Part shown: one piece after another, positions 7,493 through 26,176 of the stretch | How positions within the stretch are numbered: the stretch's first letter is position 1 | Layout: every line of letters starts with the position of its first letter | IMG/VR virus record: IMGVR_UViG_3300021373_001097 | Coordinates: 1-35,577 of that record | From: a virus | DNA: 35,577 nucleotides | Reading direction: 5' to 3' (one strand) | Notes under the pieces: generated by a model | Told to the model about the DNA's origin: nothing | Database searches by the model: none | What the model saw: the letters and a program-made list of their open reading frames with translations, nothing else | Position numbers and translations under genes: made by a program

Positions 7493-7723
7493 ATGTTCGT
7501 AGCAGATTTCTTACATAAATATAAAAAAGACTTGAATAATAGAATTGATGATATAAGTATTTCATTGACTAGTGGTAGTGCATCTGATATTGGTCAATAT
7601 AAAGCAATGGTAGGCGAAATACAGGGACTAACCTACGCATTGGAACACGTTCAAACCCTGCTAAAGAAGGTGGATGATGAGTCTGATAGTACCAGAATAC
7701 GTTCTAGCACAGAGGAACGCTAA
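7493..7723 (+). CDS. Conserved small helical phage protein
   Basis: The product has 76 residues and appears all-helical, with the pattern H-K-Y-K-K-D-L-N-N-R-I-D-D-I near the start and L-L-K-K-V-D-D-E near the end. I recall similar short proteins just before the head block in marine phages, without known function. It begins immediately after the stop of the 334-residue protein. Its last 47 bases overlap the co-chaperonin gene in another frame, and its coding sequence supplies the ribosome site for that gene. Confidence 0.65.
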   Translation: MFVADFLHKYKKDLNNRIDDISISLTSGSASDIGQYKAMVGEIQGLTYALEHVQTLLKKVDDESDSTRIRSSTEER

Positions 7724-8102
7724 GAAAAAAGCTGAAGAAGAAGCCAAAAAACTTAAATTAATAGAAAGAATACCACAGCCAACAGGTTGGCGAATATTAG
7801 TTATGCCTTACATGGGCAAAGAAAAAACTGAAGGTGGTGTTTACGTTCCAGATCCAGTAAGAGAAAGAGAAGCGAGAGCCACAGTTACAGCATATGTAGC
7901 TAAAGTGGGACCTTTGGCATATAAAGATATAGACAAATTTGGAGAAGACGGAGCTTGGTGTAAGGAAGGCGACTGGGTTTGTATTGGTCGTTACGCTGGG
8001 TCACGTTTCCAAATAGAGGGTGGGGAAGTTAGAATAATCAATGACGATGAAGTCATTGCAACCATTGTCGATCCTGACGACATCAAATCATACGGAGCCT
8101 AG
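7677..8102 (+). CDS. GroES-like co-chaperonin
   Basis: The protein caps the host GroEL ring, probably to fold the phage capsid protein, as T4 gp31 does. The core (about residues 28-135) follows the GroES pattern: P-T-G-W-R-I-L-V near the start, a mobile loop K-T-E-G-G-V-Y-V-P-D (50-59) that should bind GroEL, V-G-P, G-D-W-V-C-I-G in the middle and an I-I-N-D-D-E-V-I-A end. An extra Lys/Glu-rich helix of roughly 30 residues precedes the core, so the protein (141 residues) is longer than bacterial GroES. I prefer ATG 7677 over ATG 7674 because the GAAGG at 7666-7670 then has a spacing of six bases. It overlaps the preceding gene and leads directly into the scaffold gene. Confidence 0.85.
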   Translation: MSLIVPEYVLAQRNAKKKAEEEAKKLKLIERIPQPTGWRILVMPYMGKEKTEGGVYVPDPVREREARATVTAYVAKVGPLAYKDIDKFGEDGAWCKEGDWVCIGRYAGSRFQIEGGEVRIINDDEVIATIVDPDDIKSYGA

Positions 8103-16668: not shown

Positions 16669-18025
16669 GGCTACTAGCGGTTGGGGTGATGGTACCTGGG
16701 GATCCTCCTTTTGGGGAGGGTTTGTAGATGCTGATGTAAGTGTTACTGGTTTAGCAGCTACCTCTGCCGTTGGTGAGGAAGGGGTAACTGGAACTAGTGT
16801 AGTAGTTGAAACTGGACTAGAAGCCACTGGTGTTGTTAATTCAGCAGGATTAACATTTCTTTTTGCTTTTCTAGTATCGGGATCATCTGTAACGGGATCC
16901 GTTGGCACAGTTACTTTTGACGGAGACAGTAATACTGGCACTACTGGATTATCTGCTACTACTGCTTTAGGTTCAACAACAATAGGTGGTTCTACTGACG
17001 TTGTATTAACTGGTGTCTCTGCAACCACATCTCTAAATAGTGTCTTAGTTAAAATCCCAGTAAATGTTTCTGTTACTGGATTAGAAGCCACAACTGGGTT
17101 TTTATCTGGTTGGGGTAGTTCTGCTTGGGGTGACCACATATGGGGTGGTGGTGTATTCGCTGATGTAGGTCAAGCCATTGTACCAACTAGTTTAGAAGCA
17201 CAAGCTCAATTAACAACTCCAACTATTACTGGTACATGTATATTTAGTGTTACTGGTGTTGAGGGAACCACGGCTCTTGGTAATGCTCTTGCTGCTGCAG
17301 GAGCCATAGTAGAAGAAACAGGATTAACTGGTTCTGTAAATATTGGTGATGAAGCAGTTGTAGGTACTGCTTTAATTTCACCTACTGGTGTTTCTTGCTC
17401 TGCACTTATTAGTCAATACTCTGCAACAACAATAACTAAAACAGTTACAGTTGTATCAACGGCTGGAGGTAATAAATACTTTATAGATGGTGTTCAGCAA
17501 GACACATTAGATTTATATGAATTAAATACTTATAGATTTGATCAAAGTGATAGTAGTAATAGTGGTCATCCATTAAGATTTAGTTTAACTTCAGATGGGA
17601 CTCATGGTGGCGGTACAGAGTTTACGAGTGGTGTAACAACAAGTGGAACTCCAGGACAAGCTGGAGCTTACACAGAAATAACTGTTCCAACTAGAACAAA
17701 TACATTATATTATTATTGTAGTGTTCATTCTGGAATGGGTGGACAAGCTAATACCCCAGATATTTATACTATTTTGACTACTACTGGTGCTCCAGTTACA
17801 ACGGTTCTTGGGACAACAGCACTAGGCGAAGAAACAATAAGTGCAGGAGCAGATGTTGCTATAACATTAGCAGGCCTATCAATTTCAGCAGGTACTCTTG
17901 CCATAACAGCTAGTTCTGTGCTATCTTTAACAGGATTAAGTGTCACTGGATCAACTGGTGAGGAACAAGTTTATAGTTTAATTGAGCCAGATCAACTGGC
18001 AAATTGGATAGAAAAGGCGGCATAA
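16667..18025 (+). CDS. Repeat-rich virion protein with cupredoxin-like domain
   Basis: The 452-residue protein is built largely of short Thr/Gly/Ser beta repeats with a recurring V-T-G-L-[AES]-A-T-T motif, and has two Trp-rich motifs: W-G-D-G-T-W-G near the start and W-G-S-S-A-W-G at about 147-153. Residues about 265-370 look like a cupredoxin: Y-F-I-D-G-V-Q, S-G-H-P-L-R-F with His301, and Y-Y-Y-C-S-V-H-S-G-M-G-G with Cys351, His354 and Met357. These four are the ligands of a type 1 copper site. I recall similar domains in structural proteins of marine phages. It is probably a tail or fibre component. Whether it binds copper is unknown. Translation appears coupled to the upstream gene by a hairpin. 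Confidence 0.65.
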   Translation: MATSGWGDGTWGSSFWGGFVDADVSVTGLAATSAVGEEGVTGTSVVVETGLEATGVVNSAGLTFLFAFLVSGSSVTGSVGTVTFDGDSNTGTTGLSATTALGSTTIGGSTDVVLTGVSATTSLNSVLVKIPVNVSVTGLEATTGFLSGWGSSAWGDHIWGGGVFADVGQAIVPTSLEAQAQLTTPTITGTCIFSVTGVEGTTALGNALAAAGAIVEETGLTGSVNIGDEAVVGTALISPTGVSCSALISQYSATTITKTVTVVSTAGGNKYFIDGVQQDTLDLYELNTYRFDQSDSSNSGHPLRFSLTSDGTHGGGTEFTSGVTTSGTPGQAGAYTEITVPTRTNTLYYYCSVHSGMGGQANTPDIYTILTTTGAPVTTVLGTTALGEETISAGADVAITLAGLSISAGTLAITASSVLSLTGLSVTGSTGEEQVYSLIEPDQLANWIEKAA

Positions 18026-19023
18026 TGGCAACATATGTAAATAATCTTAGATTAAAAGAAATCACCACAGGTGACGAGTCTGGAACTTGGGGTACATCAA
18101 CAAACACAAACTTAGAACTAATAGGTGAAGGTTTAGGTTTTGCAACCGTTAACTTAGGGTCTGATGCTGATGCAACAGAAACAGTTGCAGATGGATCAAC
18201 AGACGGTGCTAGAGCTTTTTATATAAAAGTAACATCAACAACTTTAACGGCAACTAGAACTTTAACTATTGCACCAAACACAATGAAAAGAGTTCATATT
18301 ATTGAAAATGCTACAACTGGTGGTCAATCAATAAATATATCGCAAGGTAGTGGAGCTAATGTTACAATAGGTAATGGTGACACTAAGGTTGTATATTTAG
18401 ATGGAGCTGGAAGTGGAGCGGCAGTTGTTGATGCTTTTGTAGATTTAGATTTATCTGGTGGCTCTGTAAATGTAGGCACACTCAAAACAAATTCTGGTGA
18501 TATGACATTTGACTCTGCTGGAAACATTATTCTTGATGCAGATACTGGTATTATAAAACTTGCAGATGGTGGTACAAATTTTGGTCAACTAGATAAAAGT
18601 GGTAATAATCTTAGAATTATCTCTTCTATTACAGATGGTGATATTGTTTTTAGAGGAGATGATGGTGGTTCAGGCATAGATGCTCTTACACTTGATATGT
18701 CTGCGGCTGGAGCGGCAACATTTAATGATGATGTTACAGCTTTCTCAGATAAAAGATTGAAAACTGATATCTCTAATATATCAAATGGTCTTGATAAAGT
18801 TATGCGAATGCAAGGCGTTTACTACAAAAGAAATGATCAAGAAAATGCTAAATTAAAAATTGGTGTTTTAGCACAAGACATGGAAGAAATTGTTCCAGAA
18901 GTTGTTTTGACTGCAAATGATGAAATGAAAACAAAATCAGTTGACTATGCTAAACTTACTGCGGTACTGATTGAAGCAGTCAAGGAATTGAAGCAAGAAA
19001 TAAACGAATTAAGAGGTAATTAA
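18025..19023 (+). CDS. Tail fibre with C-terminal S74 chaperone
   Basis: The start at ATG 18025 overlaps the preceding stop, giving 332 residues. The first 40 residues (Y-V-N-N-L-R-L-K-E-I-T-T-G, then G-T-W-G-T-S-T-N-T-N-L) are typical of virion-attaching fibre ends. The middle is a beta repeat shaft. From residue 239 there is F-S-D-K-R-L-K-T-D-I-S, the start of an intramolecular chaperone (peptidase S74) domain, followed by G-V-L-A-Q-D-M-E and V-D-Y-A-K-L. Ser241 and Lys246 are candidates for the Ser/Lys pair by which the domain cuts itself off after helping the fibre trimerise. The trimeric shaft would be displayed after cleavage. Confidence 0.85.
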   Translation: MATYVNNLRLKEITTGDESGTWGTSTNTNLELIGEGLGFATVNLGSDADATETVADGSTDGARAFYIKVTSTTLTATRTLTIAPNTMKRVHIIENATTGGQSINISQGSGANVTIGNGDTKVVYLDGAGSGAAVVDAFVDLDLSGGSVNVGTLKTNSGDMTFDSAGNIILDADTGIIKLADGGTNFGQLDKSGNNLRIISSITDGDIVFRGDDGGSGIDALTLDMSAAGAATFNDDVTAFSDKRLKTDISNISNGLDKVMRMQGVYYKRNDQENAKLKIGVLAQDMEEIVPEVVLTANDEMKTKSVDYAKLTAVLIEAVKELKQEINELRGN

Positions 19024-20295
19024 ATGCCTATTCCATCGTCTGGACAATCTTTATCTTTTTCAGCATTAAGAACTGAATTTGTAGGTGGTTCTAGTGCCGT
19101 TAGCCTTGGTGATCTTTATAGAGGTGGTTCTAACATAAGAGCTAAACACCCAACTAATACTGCCACTAATGATGCCGCGAATGTACCTACTAGTGGTGCT
19201 TTGGATGTAAGTGATTTTTATGATCAAGGTAAAGGTTTTACATTCACTTACTCTACTGGAGGCACAGATCAGAATTTATCTGATTTATTTGGTGCTCCTG
19301 ATTATGCAGTAGATTACCCTAAAAATGTTGTAATACCTGCTTCAGTAACTTTAGGAACAAACAACACTTCTGAATATGCTTTGGAAGTAGATAGTGGAGG
19401 TGATGGAACAATTACCATTACCAATAATGGCTCTATCATTGGTGCAGGAGGCTCTGGAGGTGGAGGAGGAGGAGCAAACAGTGGTTCAGGATCTGCTGGA
19501 TCTGCTGGGGGTGACGCTATAAAAGTCGCTAGTGCATGTACTTTTGTTAATAATGGAAGCATATTAGCAGGAGGTGGAGGTGCTGGAGGTGGTGGTGGTG
19601 GTGGAAAAGGTGGAGACCTTTCACAACAACAACAAACCACTGGACAACAAGGTCCGCATTTATATTACTCAACTGTACAAGGTATAGGGGTTAGTAACTG
19701 GAGAGTAAATACTCGACCAGGAAACGCCAACCCAATGGCTGCATCTATTCAGTATGGTCGAACTAGTCCAACCTCACCATATGTAGCCCAAAACAGTACA
19801 CCAAACTTTTATAACACTAATACAATTACACAGGGACAATATACTTATGGAAAGGGTCCGTTTGTTTCACAACAAGCTGTTTATGACGAGGGTTTTCCAC
19901 CATCTGTAATACACATGTGGCGTATATATAGACAATTTCCACAACAACAACAAACTACTGCCACTGGTGGAAATGGAGGTGCTGGAGGTGCTGGAGGATT
20001 AGGTAGAGGCTTTAATAACCAACCAGGAGGAGATTCGGGTTCTGGAGGAAGTGGGGGGTCGCCAAGTCCTGCAGGTAATGGTGGAAATGGAGCCACTGGA
20101 GGTACTGGTGGTGGCTATGGACAAGCAGGAGCTACTGGTGGTACTGGTGCAACTGGAACACCTTCAACAACATCAGGAACTGGTGGGGGTTCAGGAGGCT
20201 CAGGTGGAGCGGCTGGATTAGCAGTTGAAAGAGCATCACCTATAAGTTTTACTTTTACAAATAATGGAACAGTAGCAGGAACAGTACAGAGTTAA
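19024..20295 (+). CDS. Glycine-rich receptor adhesin, gp38-like
   Basis: The protein (423 residues) begins P-I-P-S-S-G-Q-S-L-S-F-S-A-L-R-T-E-F, a fibre-attachment motif. Gly-rich runs occur at about 140-163, 181-197 and 314-400, many with G-G-x repeats of the kind that form polyglycine II helices in the T2-type gp38 adhesin. A stretch of roughly 115 residues without poly-Gly (about 200-313) lies between two copies of a Q-Q-Q-Q-T-T motif. The variable loops between such Gly runs recognise the host receptor in T-even phages. By this analogy the protein is the tip adhesin of the fibre encoded just upstream, which is inferred. No intergenic space separates the two genes. Confidence 0.7.
   Translation: MPIPSSGQSLSFSALRTEFVGGSSAVSLGDLYRGGSNIRAKHPTNTATNDAANVPTSGALDVSDFYDQGKGFTFTYSTGGTDQNLSDLFGAPDYAVDYPKNVVIPASVTLGTNNTSEYALEVDSGGDGTITITNNGSIIGAGGSGGGGGGANSGSGSAGSAGGDAIKVASACTFVNNGSILAGGGGAGGGGGGGKGGDLSQQQQTTGQQGPHLYYSTVQGIGVSNWRVNTRPGNANPMAASIQYGRTSPTSPYVAQNSTPNFYNTNTITQGQYTYGKGPFVSQQAVYDEGFPPSVIHMWRIYRQFPQQQQTTATGGNGGAGGAGGLGRGFNNQPGGDSGSGGSGGSPSPAGNGGNGATGGTGGGYGQAGATGGTGATGTPSTTSGTGGGSGGSGGAAGLAVERASPISFTFTNNGTVAGTVQS
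19622..19960 (+). repeat. Direct repeats flanking the adhesin insert
   Basis: A 21-base sequence at 19622-19642 recurs at 19940-19960 with one difference (cacaacaacaacaaa then ccactg or ctactg). The copies are 318 bases apart, a multiple of three, so both encode Gln-rich Q-Q-Q-Q-T-T in frame. They bracket the part of the adhesin that lacks poly-glycine. Confidence 0.75.
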
Positions 20296-20306
20296 GGAGT
20301 ACACAA

Positions 20307-20672
20307 ATGGCAACATACGCATGGACAATAGATTTATTATCAACAAAAGATATCACTAAGGATGGCACAACTTATTCTGATGCAATAATTAGAGTAAATG
20401 CCACCCTAACTGGAACAAGTGAAACAGATTCTAATATAAGTGCAAGTGGTAGTTTTGATTTAGATATGGATGTTACTAATATAGATAGTAGTTTTACTGC
20501 GTATAGTTCTGTTACAGAAGCTAATGTTTTATCTTGGGTACAAAATAGAGTAAACGCTGATATTTTGGCAAATATAAAAACTGGAATAGAAGCCGATATA
20601 GAATTTCAAGAAAAAGTTAATGGTGCAACACCTAAAGAAGATAGTGAGGGAAATCCAACTTTCCCTTGGTAA
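20307..20672 (+). CDS. Small conserved tail-region protein
   Basis: The 121-residue protein begins M-A-T-Y-A-W-T-I-D-L-L-S-T-K and has a two-part look: beta strands to about residue 65, then a helix with V-L-S-W-V-Q-N-R-V. I recall similar proteins next to fibre genes in marine phages, without known function. It may be a fibre-associated or assembly protein. A strong AAGGAG ribosome site precedes the ATG. A hairpin lies within its last codons, right before the oxygenase block. Confidence 0.6.
   Translation: MATYAWTIDLLSTKDITKDGTTYSDAIIRVNATLTGTSETDSNISASGSFDLDMDVTNIDSSFTAYSSVTEANVLSWVQNRVNADILANIKTGIEADIEFQEKVNGATPKEDSEGNPTFPW
20647..20666 (+). terminator. Possible weak terminator hairpin
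   Basis: AGGGAAA (20647-20653) and TTTCCCT (20660-20666) form a perfect 7-bp stem with a 6-base loop inside the end of the preceding gene. A run of five Ts follows at 20675-20679, eight bases after the stem, so the terminator is not classical and may act only partly. It stands immediately before the oxygenase promoter candidate. Confidence 0.4.
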
Positions 20673-20680
20673 GATTTTTC

Positions 20681-20709
20681 TTGAATTATCTTATTAAATC
20701 GCATAATCT
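20681..20709 (+). promoter_or_regulatory. Promoter candidate of the oxygenase block
   Basis: TTGAAT (20681-20686) is followed 15 bases later by CATAAT (20702-20707) or 17 bases later by TAATCT (20704-20709). The first oxygenase ATG is at 20716, close to the expected transcription start. The layout and A/T-rich spacer resemble the sequence before the gene at 15195. Confidence 0.5.
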
Positions 20710-20715
20710 CTGAAC

Positions 20716-21255
20716 ATGAATAAAATAGTAGATTGTTTGACAGAATCGCAAGTTGATTTGCTAATAAATCATATAGACTATTTGATAGAACATAAGTTTG
20801 TTCGAAGAGAGCCTGAACTTAAAGAAATGTTCTGCGACACCGTTCAAATGTATGCAGATGCACCTTTCGAAAATGTTTTACACTATATCAAACCAAAGAT
20901 TGAAAAAGCTTATGGTAAAGACTTAGTACCTACATATTCTTTTTGGAGAAGGTATTTTAAAGGTCAAGACTGCCCACCTCACAAGGATAGACCTTCGTGT
21001 GAAGTGAGTGTTACTCTTAATTTAGGTGGTAGTGGTGGGCATGATTGGGCAATTTTTGTAGATGATAAAAAGTTTCAACCAGAAGTGGGTCAAGCAGTTA
21101 TATATAAAGGTTGTGATCAAGAGCATTGGAGACATGAACTTGATTATGAATATCACACACAAGTATTTTTACATTACATAGAGAAGGAAGGTCAACACTA
21201 CCCCGAACACTCTTATGACCAAAGAACTAATTTGTATACAGAACCAGTTATATGA
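20716..21255 (+). CDS. 2-Oxoglutarate/Fe(II) oxygenase 1, HWR type
   Basis: This 179-residue protein should use iron, oxygen and 2-oxoglutarate to hydroxylate an unknown substrate. It has P-P-H-K-D-R-P-S-C-E at 87-96 with the iron-binding pair His89 and Asp91, and E-H-W-R at 136-139, where His137 would complete the triad and Arg139 may help bind 2-oxoglutarate. Y-H-T-Q-V-F-L-H-Y-I follows. The H-x-D-R-x-x-C-E and H-W-R pattern matches a phage/bacterial 2OG oxygenase family I recognise only by pattern. It is the first of six such genes and lies just behind a promoter candidate, with the next gene overlapping in frame shift near its end. Confidence 0.75.
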   Translation: MNKIVDCLTESQVDLLINHIDYLIEHKFVRREPELKEMFCDTVQMYADAPFENVLHYIKPKIEKAYGKDLVPTYSFWRRYFKGQDCPPHKDRPSCEVSVTLNLGGSGGHDWAIFVDDKKFQPEVGQAVIYKGCDQEHWRHELDYEYHTQVFLHYIEKEGQHYPEHSYDQRTNLYTEPVI

Positions 21256-21262
21256 GTATGAA

Positions 21263-21826
21263 ATGAAAAGAAACATAATTGTAGCTAAAAAAGCTTTAAG
21301 TGCAGACCTTTGTAATCAAATTATAGATAGGGCAAAACATAATTTTGAAAAAGCTTACACAGGTCAACAAGAAACAACTAATTCAATTAGGCAAAGTCAG
21401 ATTAGTTGGCTAAATGGTGTAATAAGACATTTAGATTTATACATTCCAGTTATGCAATTAATACATAAAGTAAATTTAGAATTTTATCACTTTGATTTAG
21501 GCGATCCAGAGCCTTTTCAAATAACTAAATATGATGAAAGCAATCAAGGTTTTTATAAGCCTCATCGTGATGGTGTTTATGATTCAGTGCCACAAAGTGA
21601 AACTGTTAGAAAATTATCGGTTTCAATACAATTAACCTCACCAGAACATTATGAAGGTGGTACATTTGAATTTCCAGACGATGTGGATAATTTCAACGTA
21701 GAAGATTCAATGGAACAAGGCACTGCCATATTCTTTCCATCGTACATGAAACATGGGGTGATACCAGTAACAAAAGGAACAAGATATAGTTTAGTTTGTT
21801 GGGTACATGGTCCAAATTTTAAGTAG
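21263..21826 (+). CDS. 2-Oxoglutarate/Fe(II) oxygenase 2, prolyl-hydroxylase type
   Basis: I choose ATG 21263 over an upstream ATG at 21215, because the latter would overlap the first oxygenase gene by 41 bases and add a non-conserved leader. The 187-residue protein keeps the full set of residues: His101 and Asp103 in P-H-R-D-G, E-G-G-T-F-E-F-P at 131-138, His164 in M-K-H-G-V, and Arg174 for the 2-oxoglutarate carboxylate. This is the pattern of prolyl-4-hydroxylase/PKHD-type oxygenases. The likely substrate is a protein or a small molecule; the sequence does not tell which. It is one gene in the six-gene series. Confidence 0.8.
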   Translation: MKRNIIVAKKALSADLCNQIIDRAKHNFEKAYTGQQETTNSIRQSQISWLNGVIRHLDLYIPVMQLIHKVNLEFYHFDLGDPEPFQITKYDESNQGFYKPHRDGVYDSVPQSETVRKLSVSIQLTSPEHYEGGTFEFPDDVDNFNVEDSMEQGTAIFFPSYMKHGVIPVTKGTRYSLVCWVHGPNFK

Positions 21827-21834
21827 GAGATGCT

Positions 21835-22437
21835 ATGTATTATGTTGTTTATGACAATTTCCTCAATGCAGAAGAGTATGGAATAATAAAACAATATCTG
21901 GGTCCTGGTGGGGGTTTTCCTTGGAGATTGGGTTCAAGAATAAATGCTCATGATGAAAGCAATGATGATATGTATTTTGCTACTATGATTTATCATAGCT
22001 ATCAAGATGGGTGGCAAGAAAACATTAGCAGACATCCATTTCAATTAATAACTTCTAAGTTACATGTAGAAAGTCTATTTAGAATTAAAAGTAATTTATA
22101 TTTTCCAAGCAAAACTAAAAAAGTAGAACATCATGCGAAACATATAGATACACAATTCAAACATCAAGGAGCGTTGTTTTATTTAACAACGTGTGATGCA
22201 CCTACGACTATGGCTGATGGTACTGAAATTGAAGCAATAGAAAATAGATTATTGTTGTTTGATGCAACTGCAACACATTCAAGCTCATCTCCTACTAATG
22301 CACCTTTTAGAGTAACAATTAATTTTAATTATTTTGGGGCAGGAGTAAGGCAAGAGTATAAAAACATGGAAATGTCAAATCCTATACCTACAATTAGTTG
22401 TAACGAAGAAAAATTAGAAGAAATATTTAATGTTTAA
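21835..22437 (+). CDS. 2-Oxoglutarate/Fe(II) oxygenase 3
   Basis: The product (200 residues) has His103 and Asp105 in A-K-H-I-D-T, His148 in T-A-T-H-S-S and Arg159 in A-P-F-R-V-T, so the full triad and 2-oxoglutarate-binding Arg seem present. The F-x-x-[MLI]-I-Y-H and R-I-K-S-N-L-Y blocks align with the protein at 23699, making the two paralogues inside one cassette. The final roughly 35 residues extend past the fold and are Glu-rich. A GGAG ribosome site stands before the ATG. Function unknown. Confidence 0.72.
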   Translation: MYYVVYDNFLNAEEYGIIKQYLGPGGGFPWRLGSRINAHDESNDDMYFATMIYHSYQDGWQENISRHPFQLITSKLHVESLFRIKSNLYFPSKTKKVEHHAKHIDTQFKHQGALFYLTTCDAPTTMADGTEIEAIENRLLLFDATATHSSSSPTNAPFRVTINFNYFGAGVRQEYKNMEMSNPIPTISCNEEKLEEIFNV

Positions 22438-22477
22438 TTCACAACAGCATGTTTATTAATAAAAAGATAGGTGGTTT

Positions 22478-23080
22478 ATGTCAGTCAATTTAAATTGTGA
22501 TTTAATCAGACCTTTTGGTCCTAGTATACTAAAGGTAAAAACTCCAGAAGAGATAATAAAAAAAGTTAATGATTTTGCAGATAATCAAAAAGATAAAAAT
22601 AACATGGATCATCGATTAGTTAGTCGTATAGAAGATGTGCCACAACTTACTAATGAGCATTTACAATCTTTGGGTGTAAAAGAAATGTTCTTAGAAATAG
22701 GTAAACATTATGTACAGACGGTAAGAGGTAAAGTTAATGTAGAAACAAACATAACTTCTGCTTGGCTTAATAACCAAATAGAAGATGAGTATAACCCCAT
22801 TCACTTTCATCATAGTTGTAAACTTTCAGCCGTTTTGTATTTAAAAATACCTGACAATAAAGATCGTGGTTTTCAAAGTGACATTGACGGCAATATAGAT
22901 TTTGTATATGGAACTTCAGATTACAGTGGATTATTTGTAGGTAATTTTTGTTACAAGCCATCTGTAGGAGATTTATTGATGTTTCCTTCATCTTTATTTC
23001 ATACTGTTTATCCATTTAAAGGCAATGATGTTAGGCGTACATTAGCGTTTAATTTAGATTACGATGTAACTAAGGTATAG
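22478..23080 (+). CDS. 2-Oxoglutarate/Fe(II) oxygenase-like 4, H-x-H type
   Basis: This 200-residue protein follows the pattern of a 2OG-Fe(II) oxygenase family of bacteria and phages (Pfam 2OG-FeII_Oxy_5, from memory): a N-P-I-H-F-H-H-S segment at 106-113, a S-A-V-L-Y-L-K-I-P strand, then G-D-L-L-M-F-P at 164-170, His175 and R-R at 186-187. Where others have H-x-D, it has H-x-H (His109, His111), so the usual acidic iron ligand is not evident. The family may naturally use this pattern. A AGGTGG ribosome site precedes the ATG after a 40-base gap. Confidence 0.68.
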   Translation: MSVNLNCDLIRPFGPSILKVKTPEEIIKKVNDFADNQKDKNNMDHRLVSRIEDVPQLTNEHLQSLGVKEMFLEIGKHYVQTVRGKVNVETNITSAWLNNQIEDEYNPIHFHHSCKLSAVLYLKIPDNKDRGFQSDIDGNIDFVYGTSDYSGLFVGNFCYKPSVGDLLMFPSSLFHTVYPFKGNDVRRTLAFNLDYDVTKV

Positions 23081-23083
23081 ATT

Positions 23084-23698
23084 ATGAAAGACACTATTAT
23101 GATTATACATGATGTTTTTACCAAAGAAGAGTGTGAAGAAATAATTAATCATGTTCCAGTTGCAGTTAAGAGATACACAAATATTGATTATAATAAAGAG
23201 CCTCTAGGTCAGGGACCAAATTCTTCTGATAGGCAAGATAGTCAATATACTGGTCGAATGATAGTAACCACAATACCTCATAAAAATGAAGATTATTATA
23301 TTAATAAATTAAAAGAATGTTTGATTGGTGCTATAAATGTTTATGCAATGCAGTTTCCAATAATAAAAGATATGTTTCTAGAAAAATGTGGTGTTTTCTT
23401 TGATGGCTTCAAAGTACAAAGGACTCAAGTTGGTGGAGGTTTTCATAAATGGCATTTTGAAGATCTTGAAGATCGAAGTAGGTTTTTAGTTTGGACATTA
23501 TTTTTAAATGATGTAAAAGAAGGTGGTGAAACTGAATTTTTATATAAAAACACTAGAGTCCCTGCCAAGCAAGGTTCTTTGTGCTTATTTCCATCAGACT
23601 GGACACATTTACATAGAGGAAACCCACCAATATCTAATGAAAAATGGATTATGACTGGTTGGTACGAATATGAATATCGAAATAGCTCTAGTAAATAA
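23084..23698 (+). CDS. 2-Oxoglutarate/Fe(II) oxygenase 5, H-x-E prolyl-hydroxylase type
   Basis: The 204-residue protein shows the prolyl-4-hydroxylase-like pattern: F-H-K-W-H-F-E-D at 120-127, N-D-V-K-E-G-G-E-T-E-F at 142-152, G-S-L-C-L-F-P at 164-170, T-H-L-H-R-G-N-P-P at 174-182 and K-W-I-M-T-G-W at 187-193. Candidate ligands are His124, Glu126 and His175, with Lys187 holding 2-oxoglutarate as in collagen prolyl hydroxylases. Glu in place of Asp seems to be a property of this marine family. It follows the fourth gene after three bases and ends directly before the sixth. Confidence 0.78.
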   Translation: MKDTIMIIHDVFTKEECEEIINHVPVAVKRYTNIDYNKEPLGQGPNSSDRQDSQYTGRMIVTTIPHKNEDYYINKLKECLIGAINVYAMQFPIIKDMFLEKCGVFFDGFKVQRTQVGGGFHKWHFEDLEDRSRFLVWTLFLNDVKEGGETEFLYKNTRVPAKQGSLCLFPSDWTHLHRGNPPISNEKWIMTGWYEYEYRNSSSK

Positions 23699-24250
23699 AT
23701 GTTTGTACACGAGCCACAATTTCAATATTTTAATCCTTTTCTAGAACAAATATATTATGAAAAGTTAGAAAATTATGTTTTGGGGTCTGATTTTAATTGG
23801 AATTGGATGGGTCATACAGTAAGCAAAGATCATGACAATCATGGTGACGATACATTTGTATTTGGTAAATTAATTTATCATGAAACACAAAATGAACAAG
23901 TTCATGAAGTGTGGAAGCCATTAATAGAATCTATTCAAAAACAGTTCCTTTGCAACATACATAGAATTAGATTAAATCTATACACCAATCAAAATAAAAA
24001 ACTATACACAATTCCTCACCATGATGTAGGAGAAAGAGGCATAACTGTACCAGATAGAAAATTTGATATTATTATATTAAATTTTACAACTTGTAATGGT
24101 GGCACAAAAATAGGTGGTCTTGATGTTATGTCAAAAAGAAATGGAGCTGTGTTTTTTAACAATGTACATAAACATTGTGGTTTTGTGCAAACAGATACAC
24201 AAAGAAGAATATGTGCCAATATTGTAATTCATCCAAAGGACAAAGAATGA
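23699..24250 (+). CDS. 2-Oxoglutarate/Fe(II) oxygenase 6
   Basis: The 183-residue product has His107 and Asp109 in P-H-H-D-V-G, His159 in H-K-H-C-G and Arg170 in T-Q-R-R-I. The spacing from the distal His to the Arg (11 residues) is the same as in the third gene. R-I-R-L-N-L-Y and F-G-K-L-I-Y-H also align with the third gene, so it appears to be a paralogue. It begins with no gap after the fifth gene and is the last of the cassette; a 60-base gap with a strong extended -10 promoter follows. Confidence 0.72.
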   Translation: MFVHEPQFQYFNPFLEQIYYEKLENYVLGSDFNWNWMGHTVSKDHDNHGDDTFVFGKLIYHETQNEQVHEVWKPLIESIQKQFLCNIHRIRLNLYTNQNKKLYTIPHHDVGERGITVPDRKFDIIILNFTTCNGGTKIGGLDVMSKRNGAVFFNNVHKHCGFVQTDTQRRICANIVIHPKDKE

Positions 24251-24256
24251 GCACAA

Positions 24257-24285
24257 TTACCTTCAGTCCTATAGGTTGCTATAAT
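24257..24285 (+). promoter_or_regulatory. Extended -10 promoter before nozzle gene
   Basis: TGCTATAAT at 24277-24285 is a perfect extended -10 element (TGnTATAAT). The -35 position with a 17-base spacer, TTACCT (24257-24262), is weak, as is allowed with an extended -10. The expected start near 24292 is about 19 bases before the ATG at 24311. It lies in the only gap between the oxygenase block and the tail genes. Confidence 0.65.
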
Positions 24286-24310
24286 TATTATTTTGAAGTA
24301 AAATTCAACT

Positions 24311-26176
24311 ATGCCATTAACGTCTTTAAAATTTAAGCCAGGAATTAATAGAGAGATTACGTCTTATTCTAATGAAGGTGGTTTTTTTGATTGTGATAAG
24401 GTTAGATTTCATGCAGGTTTCCCAGAAAAAATAGGTGGTTGGGTAAAACAATCTTCTAACACTTATCAAGGAACAGCAAGAGCTTTACACAATTGGGTTG
24501 CATTAGACAACTCTAACTTTATGGGAGTAGGAACACACTTAAAATATTATATAGAAGAAGGCGGTAGTTTTAGCGACATAACTCCAGTTCGTAAAACGTC
24601 TACGAACACTATTACTTTTTCTGCTACAGATGGCTCTAGTACAATAACAGTTACAGATACTTCACATGGAGCTGTGGTAAATGATTTTGTGACTATTTCT
24701 GGTGCTGTTAGTTTAGGTGGCACTGTTGTGGCAGACGTTTTAAATGCTGAACATCAAATAACAAAAGTTGTTGATGGTAATTCTTATGAAATAGTAGTGA
24801 GTGTAACTGCAAATTCTTCTGATACGGGTAATGGTGGTTCTGGTGTTGACGGTGTTTATCAAATCAACGTAGGTTTGAACACTACTGTCGGTGGCAACGG
24901 ATGGGGTGCTGGAGCTTGGGGTGGTATAAACCCAGATCTAACAGAGTTTGGTTGGGGAGAAGCGGCTGCCAGTGGAACAACTGCTCAAATAAGATTGTGG
25001 TCTCATGATAATTTTGGAGAAGATTTACTCATAAATCCAAAAGATGATGGTATTTTTATATGGGATAAAAGTAATGGTTTAGGCACAAGAGCTGTTAATT
25101 TAACAAGTTTGTCAGGTGCAAGTAACGTACCCACAGTAGCTAAACAAGTTTTAGTATCTGATTTAGATCGACATGTAATTGTCTTTGGTGCAAATGCCAT
25201 TGGTACATCGACCCAAGATCCATTGCTTATTCGTTTTGGTTCTCAAGAGTCATTGACAGATTTCACACCAACAGCCACAAATACTGCTGGCGACTTAAGG
25301 CTAAGTAGTGGCTCTACTTTTGTACAAGCCGTAGAGACGAAGCAACAAACACTTGTTTTTACAGACAGAAGTGTTTTTAGTATGAGATTTATCGGACCTC
25401 CTTTTACATTTGGTCTACAAGAGCTTTCTAAAAACATATCCATTATGAGTCCAAAAGCAGCAGTCGCAGTAGATGATGCTGTTTTCTGGATGGGCAAAGA
25501 TACTTTTTATGTGTATGGTGGACAAACACAACAAATTCCTTGCACTGTTAGAGACAAAGTATTTTTAGATTTTAATTATTCTCAGTCAGACAAAGCTTTT
25601 GCCGCCGTTAATTCTAAGTTCGGAGAGATATGGTGGTTCTATCCATCGGCTGATTCAGACGAAAACGATAAATATGTTATTTTTAATTACTTAGAAAAGA
25701 CATGGTACTATGGTTCTTTAAGTCGAACAGCTTGGCATGATAGAGGAATACGACAATATCCTATTGCAGCAGGTTCTTCATATTTGTATGAGCATGAGAA
25801 CGGAAACGATGATGATGGTAGTGCAATGACTGCATCTGTTGAGTCAAGTCAAATAGATATAGGTGATGGATATCATTTTACTTTTATAAAACAGCTGATA
25901 CCAGACATAACATTTGAAGGGTCTACTTCTTCAACAGGTAATCCGTCGGCTACTTTTACATTACAAGCTAGAAAAGGACCTGGTAGTTCTTACGAAAATT
26001 CTAGTGGTGGGTCTACTACTAGAACTGCAACAACACCAGTTGAACAGTTTACTGATCTAGTTAATGTCAGATTAAGAGGAAGATCTTTTAATATGAAACT
26101 TGAATCAACGGAACAAGGAGTTGCTTGGAAACTAGGTATACCAAGAGTGGATATTAGACAAGACGGGAGAAGATAA
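24311..26176 (+). CDS. Tail nozzle / DNA-stabilisation-like protein
   Basis: This 621-residue protein begins L-T-S-L-K-F-K-P-G-I-N-R-E-I-T and is beta-rich throughout, with repeated W-G motifs near residues 197-218 and an I-P-R-V-D-I-R end. It fits the P22 gp10/T7 gp12 class, which closes the short tail below the adaptor ring and keeps packaged DNA inside. Thr, Ser, Gly and Asp are abundant and no enzymatic motif is visible. It opens the tail/ejection block, behind an extended -10 promoter, and is coupled to the next gene through TAATG. Confidence 0.7.
   Translation: MPLTSLKFKPGINREITSYSNEGGFFDCDKVRFHAGFPEKIGGWVKQSSNTYQGTARALHNWVALDNSNFMGVGTHLKYYIEEGGSFSDITPVRKTSTNTITFSATDGSSTITVTDTSHGAVVNDFVTISGAVSLGGTVVADVLNAEHQITKVVDGNSYEIVVSVTANSSDTGNGGSGVDGVYQINVGLNTTVGGNGWGAGAWGGINPDLTEFGWGEAAASGTTAQIRLWSHDNFGEDLLINPKDDGIFIWDKSNGLGTRAVNLTSLSGASNVPTVAKQVLVSDLDRHVIVFGANAIGTSTQDPLLIRFGSQESLTDFTPTATNTAGDLRLSSGSTFVQAVETKQQTLVFTDRSVFSMRFIGPPFTFGLQELSKNISIMSPKAAVAVDDAVFWMGKDTFYVYGGQTQQIPCTVRDKVFLDFNYSQSDKAFAAVNSKFGEIWWFYPSADSDENDKYVIFNYLEKTWYYGSLSRTAWHDRGIRQYPIAAGSSYLYEHENGNDDDGSAMTASVESSQIDIGDGYHFTFIKQLIPDITFEGSTSSTGNPSATFTLQARKGPGSSYENSSGGSTTRTATTPVEQFTDLVNVRLRGRSFNMKLESTEQGVAWKLGIPRVDIRQDGRR

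Follow-up and report, generated by a model that had tools for sequence, protein, structure and literature searches.

The window, that is, the whole stretch of DNA analysed here, is an entire IMG/VR record of 35,577 bp and is possibly a genome fragment. The portal and adaptor proteins of this marine phage are SU10-like, and the phage is probably short-tailed. No near relative was found among phage records by megablast, and the window contains neither Rfam matches nor tRNAs. It contains a cassette of six adjacent genes on the plus strand, ox1 to ox6, separated by gaps of at most 40 bp and flanked by the genes for an adhesin and its small partner on one side and by a tail nozzle gene on the other. 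All six ORFs are at the place and on the strand given by the original prediction, which had described them as 2-oxoglutarate (2OG)/Fe(II) oxygenase-like genes lying between adhesin and nozzle. Promoter and terminator scans over positions 18800-24600 yielded nothing exceeding chance.

Upstream of the cassette, also on the plus strand, lies a tail fibre gene (18004..19023; PHROG tail-fibre matches, E 5.7e-29) whose product appears, from a by-eye reading of an S74-like C-terminal motif, to end in a self-cleaving chaperone-like domain of the S74 type. It is followed on the same strand by the gene for a glycine-rich adhesin of 423 aa (19024..20295; phrog_10745, E 6e-26), the proposed substrate of the cassette, and by the gene for its small partner, a DUF7936 protein of 121 aa (20307..20672; PF25590, E 5.1e-12). 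An alignment of 15 related adhesins has shown that residues 211-306 (19654..19941, plus strand) are hypervariable, with few conserved residues, and lie between two conserved QQQQT motifs; this segment probably forms receptor-binding loops, and that it is also the modified part is a guess. The right-hand flank is the plus-strand gene for a tail nozzle/stabilization protein (24311..26176; phrog_3287, E 4.5e-63; relatives annotated as stabilization or tail proteins), which served both as the anchor for fetching relatives and as the control flank.

The six products are different proteins from four PHROG families: 2954, 61 (two proteins), 274 (two proteins) and 81, in agreement with the at least four sub-types predicted; phrog_61 and phrog_81 are named as 2OG-Fe(II) oxygenases. 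The Pfam cut-off was exceeded by three of the six, namely ox2 (21215..21826), a PKHD/P4H-like oxygenase, and ox5 (23084..23698), a prolyl-4-hydroxylase-like protein, both matching PF13640 (E 2.5e-14 and 5.4e-11, respectively), and ox4 (22478..23080; PF13759, E 1.4e-18). At the sequence level, phmmer linked ox2 to the PKHD-type hydroxylase 3dkq (E 2.2e-5) and ox5 to the bacterial prolyl 4-hydroxylase 3itq (E 5.3e-6), and found no match to PDB sequences for ox4. Pfam gave no support for ox1 (20716..21255; phrog_2954, E 1.2e-41), ox3 (21835..22437; phrog_274) and its diverged relative ox6 (23699..24250; phrog_274, E 1.8e-24), the nature of which would be masked by the database names of their families, "ferrochelatase" for ox1 and "DNA endonuclease V" for ox3 and ox6. 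For ox2, the ATG at 21263 is a more likely start than the one at 21215.

AlphaFold modelled ox1 from 40 aligned sequences (pLDDT 94.7) and ox3 from 41 (pLDDT 93.7), and the best Foldseek match of each was a prolyl hydroxylase (3.3e-7 and 1.3e-6, respectively). In structure alignments, ox1 reached a VIA Z of up to 16.1 (2.5 A over 150 residues) and ox3 a VIA Z of 14.9 against 6n1f (2.4 A over 156 residues). The double-stranded beta helix expected from structure prediction is present in both models and can be extended to ox6, which is homologous to ox3 (hhalign against the ox3 family, E 8.7e-37); for ox2, ox4 and ox5 the same fold is predicted from the Pfam matches above cut-off. PHROG families, Pfam, the two models and the homology of ox6 to ox3 thus agree in describing six 2OG oxygenase-like proteins. 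A ferrochelatase identity of ox1 was ruled out, since along its whole length the model has the beta-helix oxygenase fold and not that of a chelatase. T4 endonuclease V is a mostly helical glycosylase; this identity was ruled out for ox3, whose model is beta-rich and matches 2OG oxygenases.

Residue invariance was read from orthologue alignments, which comprised between 29 and 122 sequences for each gene. The HxD/E...H metal triad is invariant in ox1 (H89/D91/H137), ox2 (H117/D119/H180), ox3 (H103/D105/H148), ox5 (H124/E126/H177) and ox6 (H107/D109/H159), so that the predicted iron-binding patterns held for these five; the pair previously numbered H101/D103 in ox2 is the same H117/D119 counted from the likelier start. 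In ox4 the motif is not canonical: H109/H111/H175/R186 are invariant, and the H-x-H replacing H-x-D/E is kept in 29 of 29 relatives. Its triad lacks a carboxylate, and ox4 is therefore called here a PF13759 protein and not a proven 2OG oxygenase. The Arg/Lys for the 2OG carboxylate is found about 10 residues past the distal His in ox2 to ox6 (R190, conserved in 99% of sequences; R159, in 98%; and the invariant R186, K187 and R170, respectively). In ox1 there is no conserved Arg/Lys at this distance; R139 and R78 are invariant.

Relatives were fetched with three nozzle and two oxygenase queries, and ORFs were read on both strands. Among 95 complete non-redundant fibre-to-nozzle intervals, 90 contained at least one oxygenase, 47 at least five and 30 at least six, with a maximum of 11 (L244); the five intervals with no such gene include some with adhesins. 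Restricting the analysis to 79 nozzle-anchored non-redundant intervals drops most of the bias from searching with oxygenases, although some may remain, since an oxygenase had first led to the contigs that supplied two of the three nozzle queries; here the median was four oxygenases, with at least one in 75 intervals, at least three in 60, at least five in 35 and at least six in 19. The relatives' arrays also include tryptophan halogenases (PF04820) and sulfotransferases (PF13469), mixed with the oxygenases, as well as DUF6445 proteins with oxygenase-like motifs, a PLP enzyme, a methyltransferase (just under the Pfam cut-off) and QueC-like ATPases (under the cut-off). The notion that intervals without a glycine-rich adhesin have no oxygenases was dropped because arrays were found there on the minus strand; the median number of oxygenase genes per interval was five with such an adhesin and four without it.

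Among phages in general, a run of six is unusual as far as the literature consulted tells; within this group it is not exceptional, and cultured phages have clusters of similar size. The original prediction had allowed that such runs might turn out to be common and functionally neutral; they are common, but neutrality is contradicted by the dN/dS ratios of 0.09-0.35 for ox1 to ox6, calculated between the window and the relatives L010, L060 and L020 with unsaturated dS only. In the same comparisons the adhesin gave ratios of 0.20-0.25 and the nozzle gene, which is truncated in L060, ratios of 0.08-0.18. Purifying selection acts on each of the six cassette genes, whose order is identical in L010 and L060.

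To compare cassette content among the relatives, 454 cassette enzymes were grouped into 167 clusters at 45% identity, and cassette similarity was expressed as the Jaccard index. The Mantel test was run on these sequence clusters because iterated profiles do not give stable subfamily labels, ox3 and ox6, and likewise ox4 and ox8, changing places between runs. The correlation of cassette similarity was 0.64 with the adhesin versus 0.30 with the nozzle on the other flank; the partial Mantel r was 0.61 for the adhesin given the nozzle and 0.16 for the nozzle given the adhesin, neither value being reached in 1000 permutations. On the adhesin side the correlation dropped with distance, to 0.50 for the S74 fibre and 0.35 for the second fibre, and was 0.21 for a more distant upstream gene. 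In pairs with nozzle similarity above 0.85, the Jaccard index was 0.42 if the adhesins were similar and 0.05 if they were different. The 15 intervals with the window's adhesin type, as defined by the DUF7936 partner gene, all contain ox1, ox2 and ox3, including L086 and L091 despite nozzle similarities of only about 0.35 (a few low nozzle similarities involve truncated nozzle genes). Hence in about 90 related viruses the enzyme set changes together with the adhesin. Adjacency alone, that is, co-transfer of neighbours, could be the source of this linkage.

The same grouping of a glycine-rich protein (25-34% Gly), a small phrog_7759 partner and several oxygenases was found in cultured phages. 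The T4-like HTVC008M has five oxygenases in a row beside a glycine-rich adhesin and its partner; the T4-like S-MS29 and P-RSM4 have six each, interleaved with other genes; and adhesin, partner and oxygenases are also grouped in the pelagiphages HTVC023P and HTVC033P. In S-MS29, P-RSM4, S-CAM8 and S-SSM5 the partner gene is about 40-80 bp from a relative of ox1, and a carbamoyltransferase gene adjoins that of the adhesin in cultured phages. Clusters in cultured Pelagibacter phages and T4-like cyanophages are annotated as "ferrochelatase", "TPR" or "leprecan". Greip has the partner-protein family with no oxygenase annotated nearby, and Bellamy has no oxygenase annotated as such, several of its genes there being unnamed. 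In the bacterial contigs searched, the ox1 relative was mostly alone or with one other oxygenase, and arrays of at least three were mostly on contigs also carrying phage tail genes. Some of the latter are records of Pelagibacteraceae (L329, L332), a hint that this phage group has SAR11 hosts.

The linkage of the enzyme set to the adhesin suggests that the phage itself puts the chemical finish on its host-recognition protein. The leading idea of the original prediction was that a virion protein or fibre is hydroxylated, and the tracking of the adhesin by cassette content lends it support. We assign a probability of about 0.5 to the reading that ox1 to ox6 form an exchangeable adhesin-maturation cassette hydroxylating the adhesin, its partner or the fibre tip. 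The six would be late genes that move with the adhesin and the small partner as one exchangeable host-recognition module, and during virion assembly their products, as cytosolic Fe(II)/2-oxoglutarate oxygenases, would hydroxylate side chains of these proteins. The benefit may be a tip that folds, resists damage or shows a chemically modified receptor-binding surface. Each adhesin type would require its own enzyme set, and the array would therefore change. A broader version, somewhat short of an even chance in our estimate, is a combinatorial modification system in which swappable sets of up to about 11 oxygenases plus halogenases and sulfotransferases would equip the receptor-binding tip with chemistry beyond the twenty amino acids and pass with it from one marine phage to another. 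Residue counts gave no support for a simple enzyme-to-residue rule: adhesins with halogenases have no excess of Trp, and those with sulfotransferases no excess of Tyr.

Sulfotransferases and carbamoyltransferases often act on glycans, which is a point against adhesin maturation. The main rival, rather unlikely in our view, is that the enzymes act inside the infected cell to modify the host receptor or some other surface molecule, whereby progeny would avoid re-adsorbing to debris or competitors would be excluded. It fits the adhesin linkage equally well, since the adhesin defines the receptor and the set would follow it, and the sulfotransferases, methyltransferase and halogenases of the relatives and the carbamoyltransferase of cultured phages belong to kinds of enzymes that often act on glycans or lipids. 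However, the enzymes of the window sit with the partner protein in a structural block, whose timing would suit assembly, several of them best match protein hydroxylases, and nothing in the cassette was recognised as a glycosyltransferase or transport gene. The halogenases, sulfotransferases, PLP and methyl-transfer enzymes also resemble natural-product sets, but the synthesis of a small molecule or modified peptide by a tailoring pathway, perhaps with the partner as the precursor, seems improbable: among the gene assignments of the window's cassette, none pointed to a core assembly enzyme, a leader-peptide protease or an exporter, and the partner proteins exceed 110 aa and look structural.

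The remaining readings, auxiliary metabolism and pure hitchhiking, fit less well than adhesin maturation or receptor modification. A metabolic role, in which the oxygenases alter the host 2-oxoglutarate pool or redirect metabolism, has been put forward for cyanophages (PMC3037559, PMC9602691) and agrees with the several copies in many marine phages; yet a single gene would be enough, and neither distinct enzyme sets tied to adhesins nor 167 clusters among 454 genes would be predicted, which makes it very unlikely. We also doubt, if slightly less strongly, that the locus is a hypervariable recombination island gathering unrelated cargo by the fibre without functional coupling. The low GC content of the cassette (31.5% vs 37.2% for the window) would agree with this, as would the high variability of marine phage host-recognition islands and their "Fe(II)-dependent oxygenase" genes (PMC3909814). 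But the cargo comes overwhelmingly from a single enzyme superfamily, on which purifying selection acts, and comparable groupings turn up in tailed phages that are not related.

Genes for 2OG oxygenases rank with the commonest "auxiliary" genes of marine phages, and guesses about what they do go back to 2010 or earlier. With the enzyme set tied to the adhesin, the question comes down to whether the adhesin of a cultured phage shows mass shifts, and two misleading database names, "ferrochelatase" and "DNA endonuclease V", are corrected. If the adhesin-maturation reading is true, the host range of abundant ocean phages would depend both on adhesin sequence and on chemical modification, host prediction from sequence only would miss the modification, and these phages would be a source of numerous compact hydroxylases of proteins, each with a candidate substrate encoded next door.

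Both the multiplicity of phage oxygenases and their island location were already known; the adhesin-linked combinatorial cassette was not found in the open-access literature searched, nor was any report of phage fibre or adhesin hydroxylation tied to such cassettes. Metaviromic islands are likewise hypervariable host-recognition regions with oxygenases among their frequent genes, and the accessible portion of that account describes neither a multi-gene combinatorial oxygenase cassette nor adhesin linkage (PMC3909814). Glycine-rich phage adhesins (Gly_rich_2) share with that of the window a glycine-rich frame and hypervariable segments at the fibre tip. The S16 gp38-like adhesins also belong here, and gp38 adhesins are not known to be accompanied by an oxygenase cassette. 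The Chlorella virus collagen prolyl hydroxylase (vCPH) and bacterial P4H have the fold matched by the ox1 and ox3 models, and bacterial P4H is matched in sequence by ox5 and ox2; vCPH is a virus-encoded protein hydroxylase, as proposed for the cassette. Unlike the cassette, these are single enzymes from outside phages, with other substrates and without an array. Phold notes that such phage proteins structurally resemble human EGLN3 (PMC12774648). Close parallels are also the 2OG-Fe(II) oxygenases of T4-like cyanophages and pelagiphages, which belong to the same families (phrog_61, 81, 274 and 2954) and occur in several copies per genome: several in most T4-like cyanophages (PMC3037559), nine in S-SZBM1 (PMC9146016) and 24 in S-SCSM1 (PMC9602691). 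In P-RSM4, S-MS29 and HTVC008M they are clustered beside glycine-rich adhesins, as in the window; the literature consulted treats them as genes of metabolism or DNA repair, whereas here they are tied to the adhesin type.

The PHROG names of two families in the oxygenase array, 'ferrochelatase' for phrog_2954 (ox1, 20716-21255) and 'DNA endonuclease V' for phrog_274 (ox3 and ox6, 21835-22437 and 23699-24250), appear to be wrong, because the predicted models have 2OG oxygenase folds. Relatives were found in 154 phage records for phrog_2954 and in 254 for phrog_274, and many of them carry the respective name as their annotation.

Tryptophan halogenase-like genes, between one and three in tandem, also occur within the same cassette in related phages (L125:7576-9144, L126:1296-4113 and L124:2108-6451). 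In loci whose adhesin is of the tail-collar type, the array of oxygenase genes is encoded on the opposite strand (L235:5894-8728, L156, L167 and L170). In the window itself, a GroES-like co-chaperonin gene (phrog_3188, 7674-8102) is located close to the head genes.

Two phage-like contigs of about 60 kb with the module (L329 and L332) come from the Pelagibacteraceae records AG-404-L13 and AG-422-I02, which suggests SAR11 hosts. Ten oxygenase-like genes of the types ox1, ox2, ox3, ox4, ox7 and ox8 are present on a contig of 7.8 kb (L346) whose bin is assigned to Flavobacteriaceae.

In ox4 (22478-23080) an invariant H-x-H...H replaces H-x-D/E...H, and this motif could be a three-histidine metal site; related genes of the cultured T4-like cyanophage P-RSM4 have HQH, HYH and HIH.
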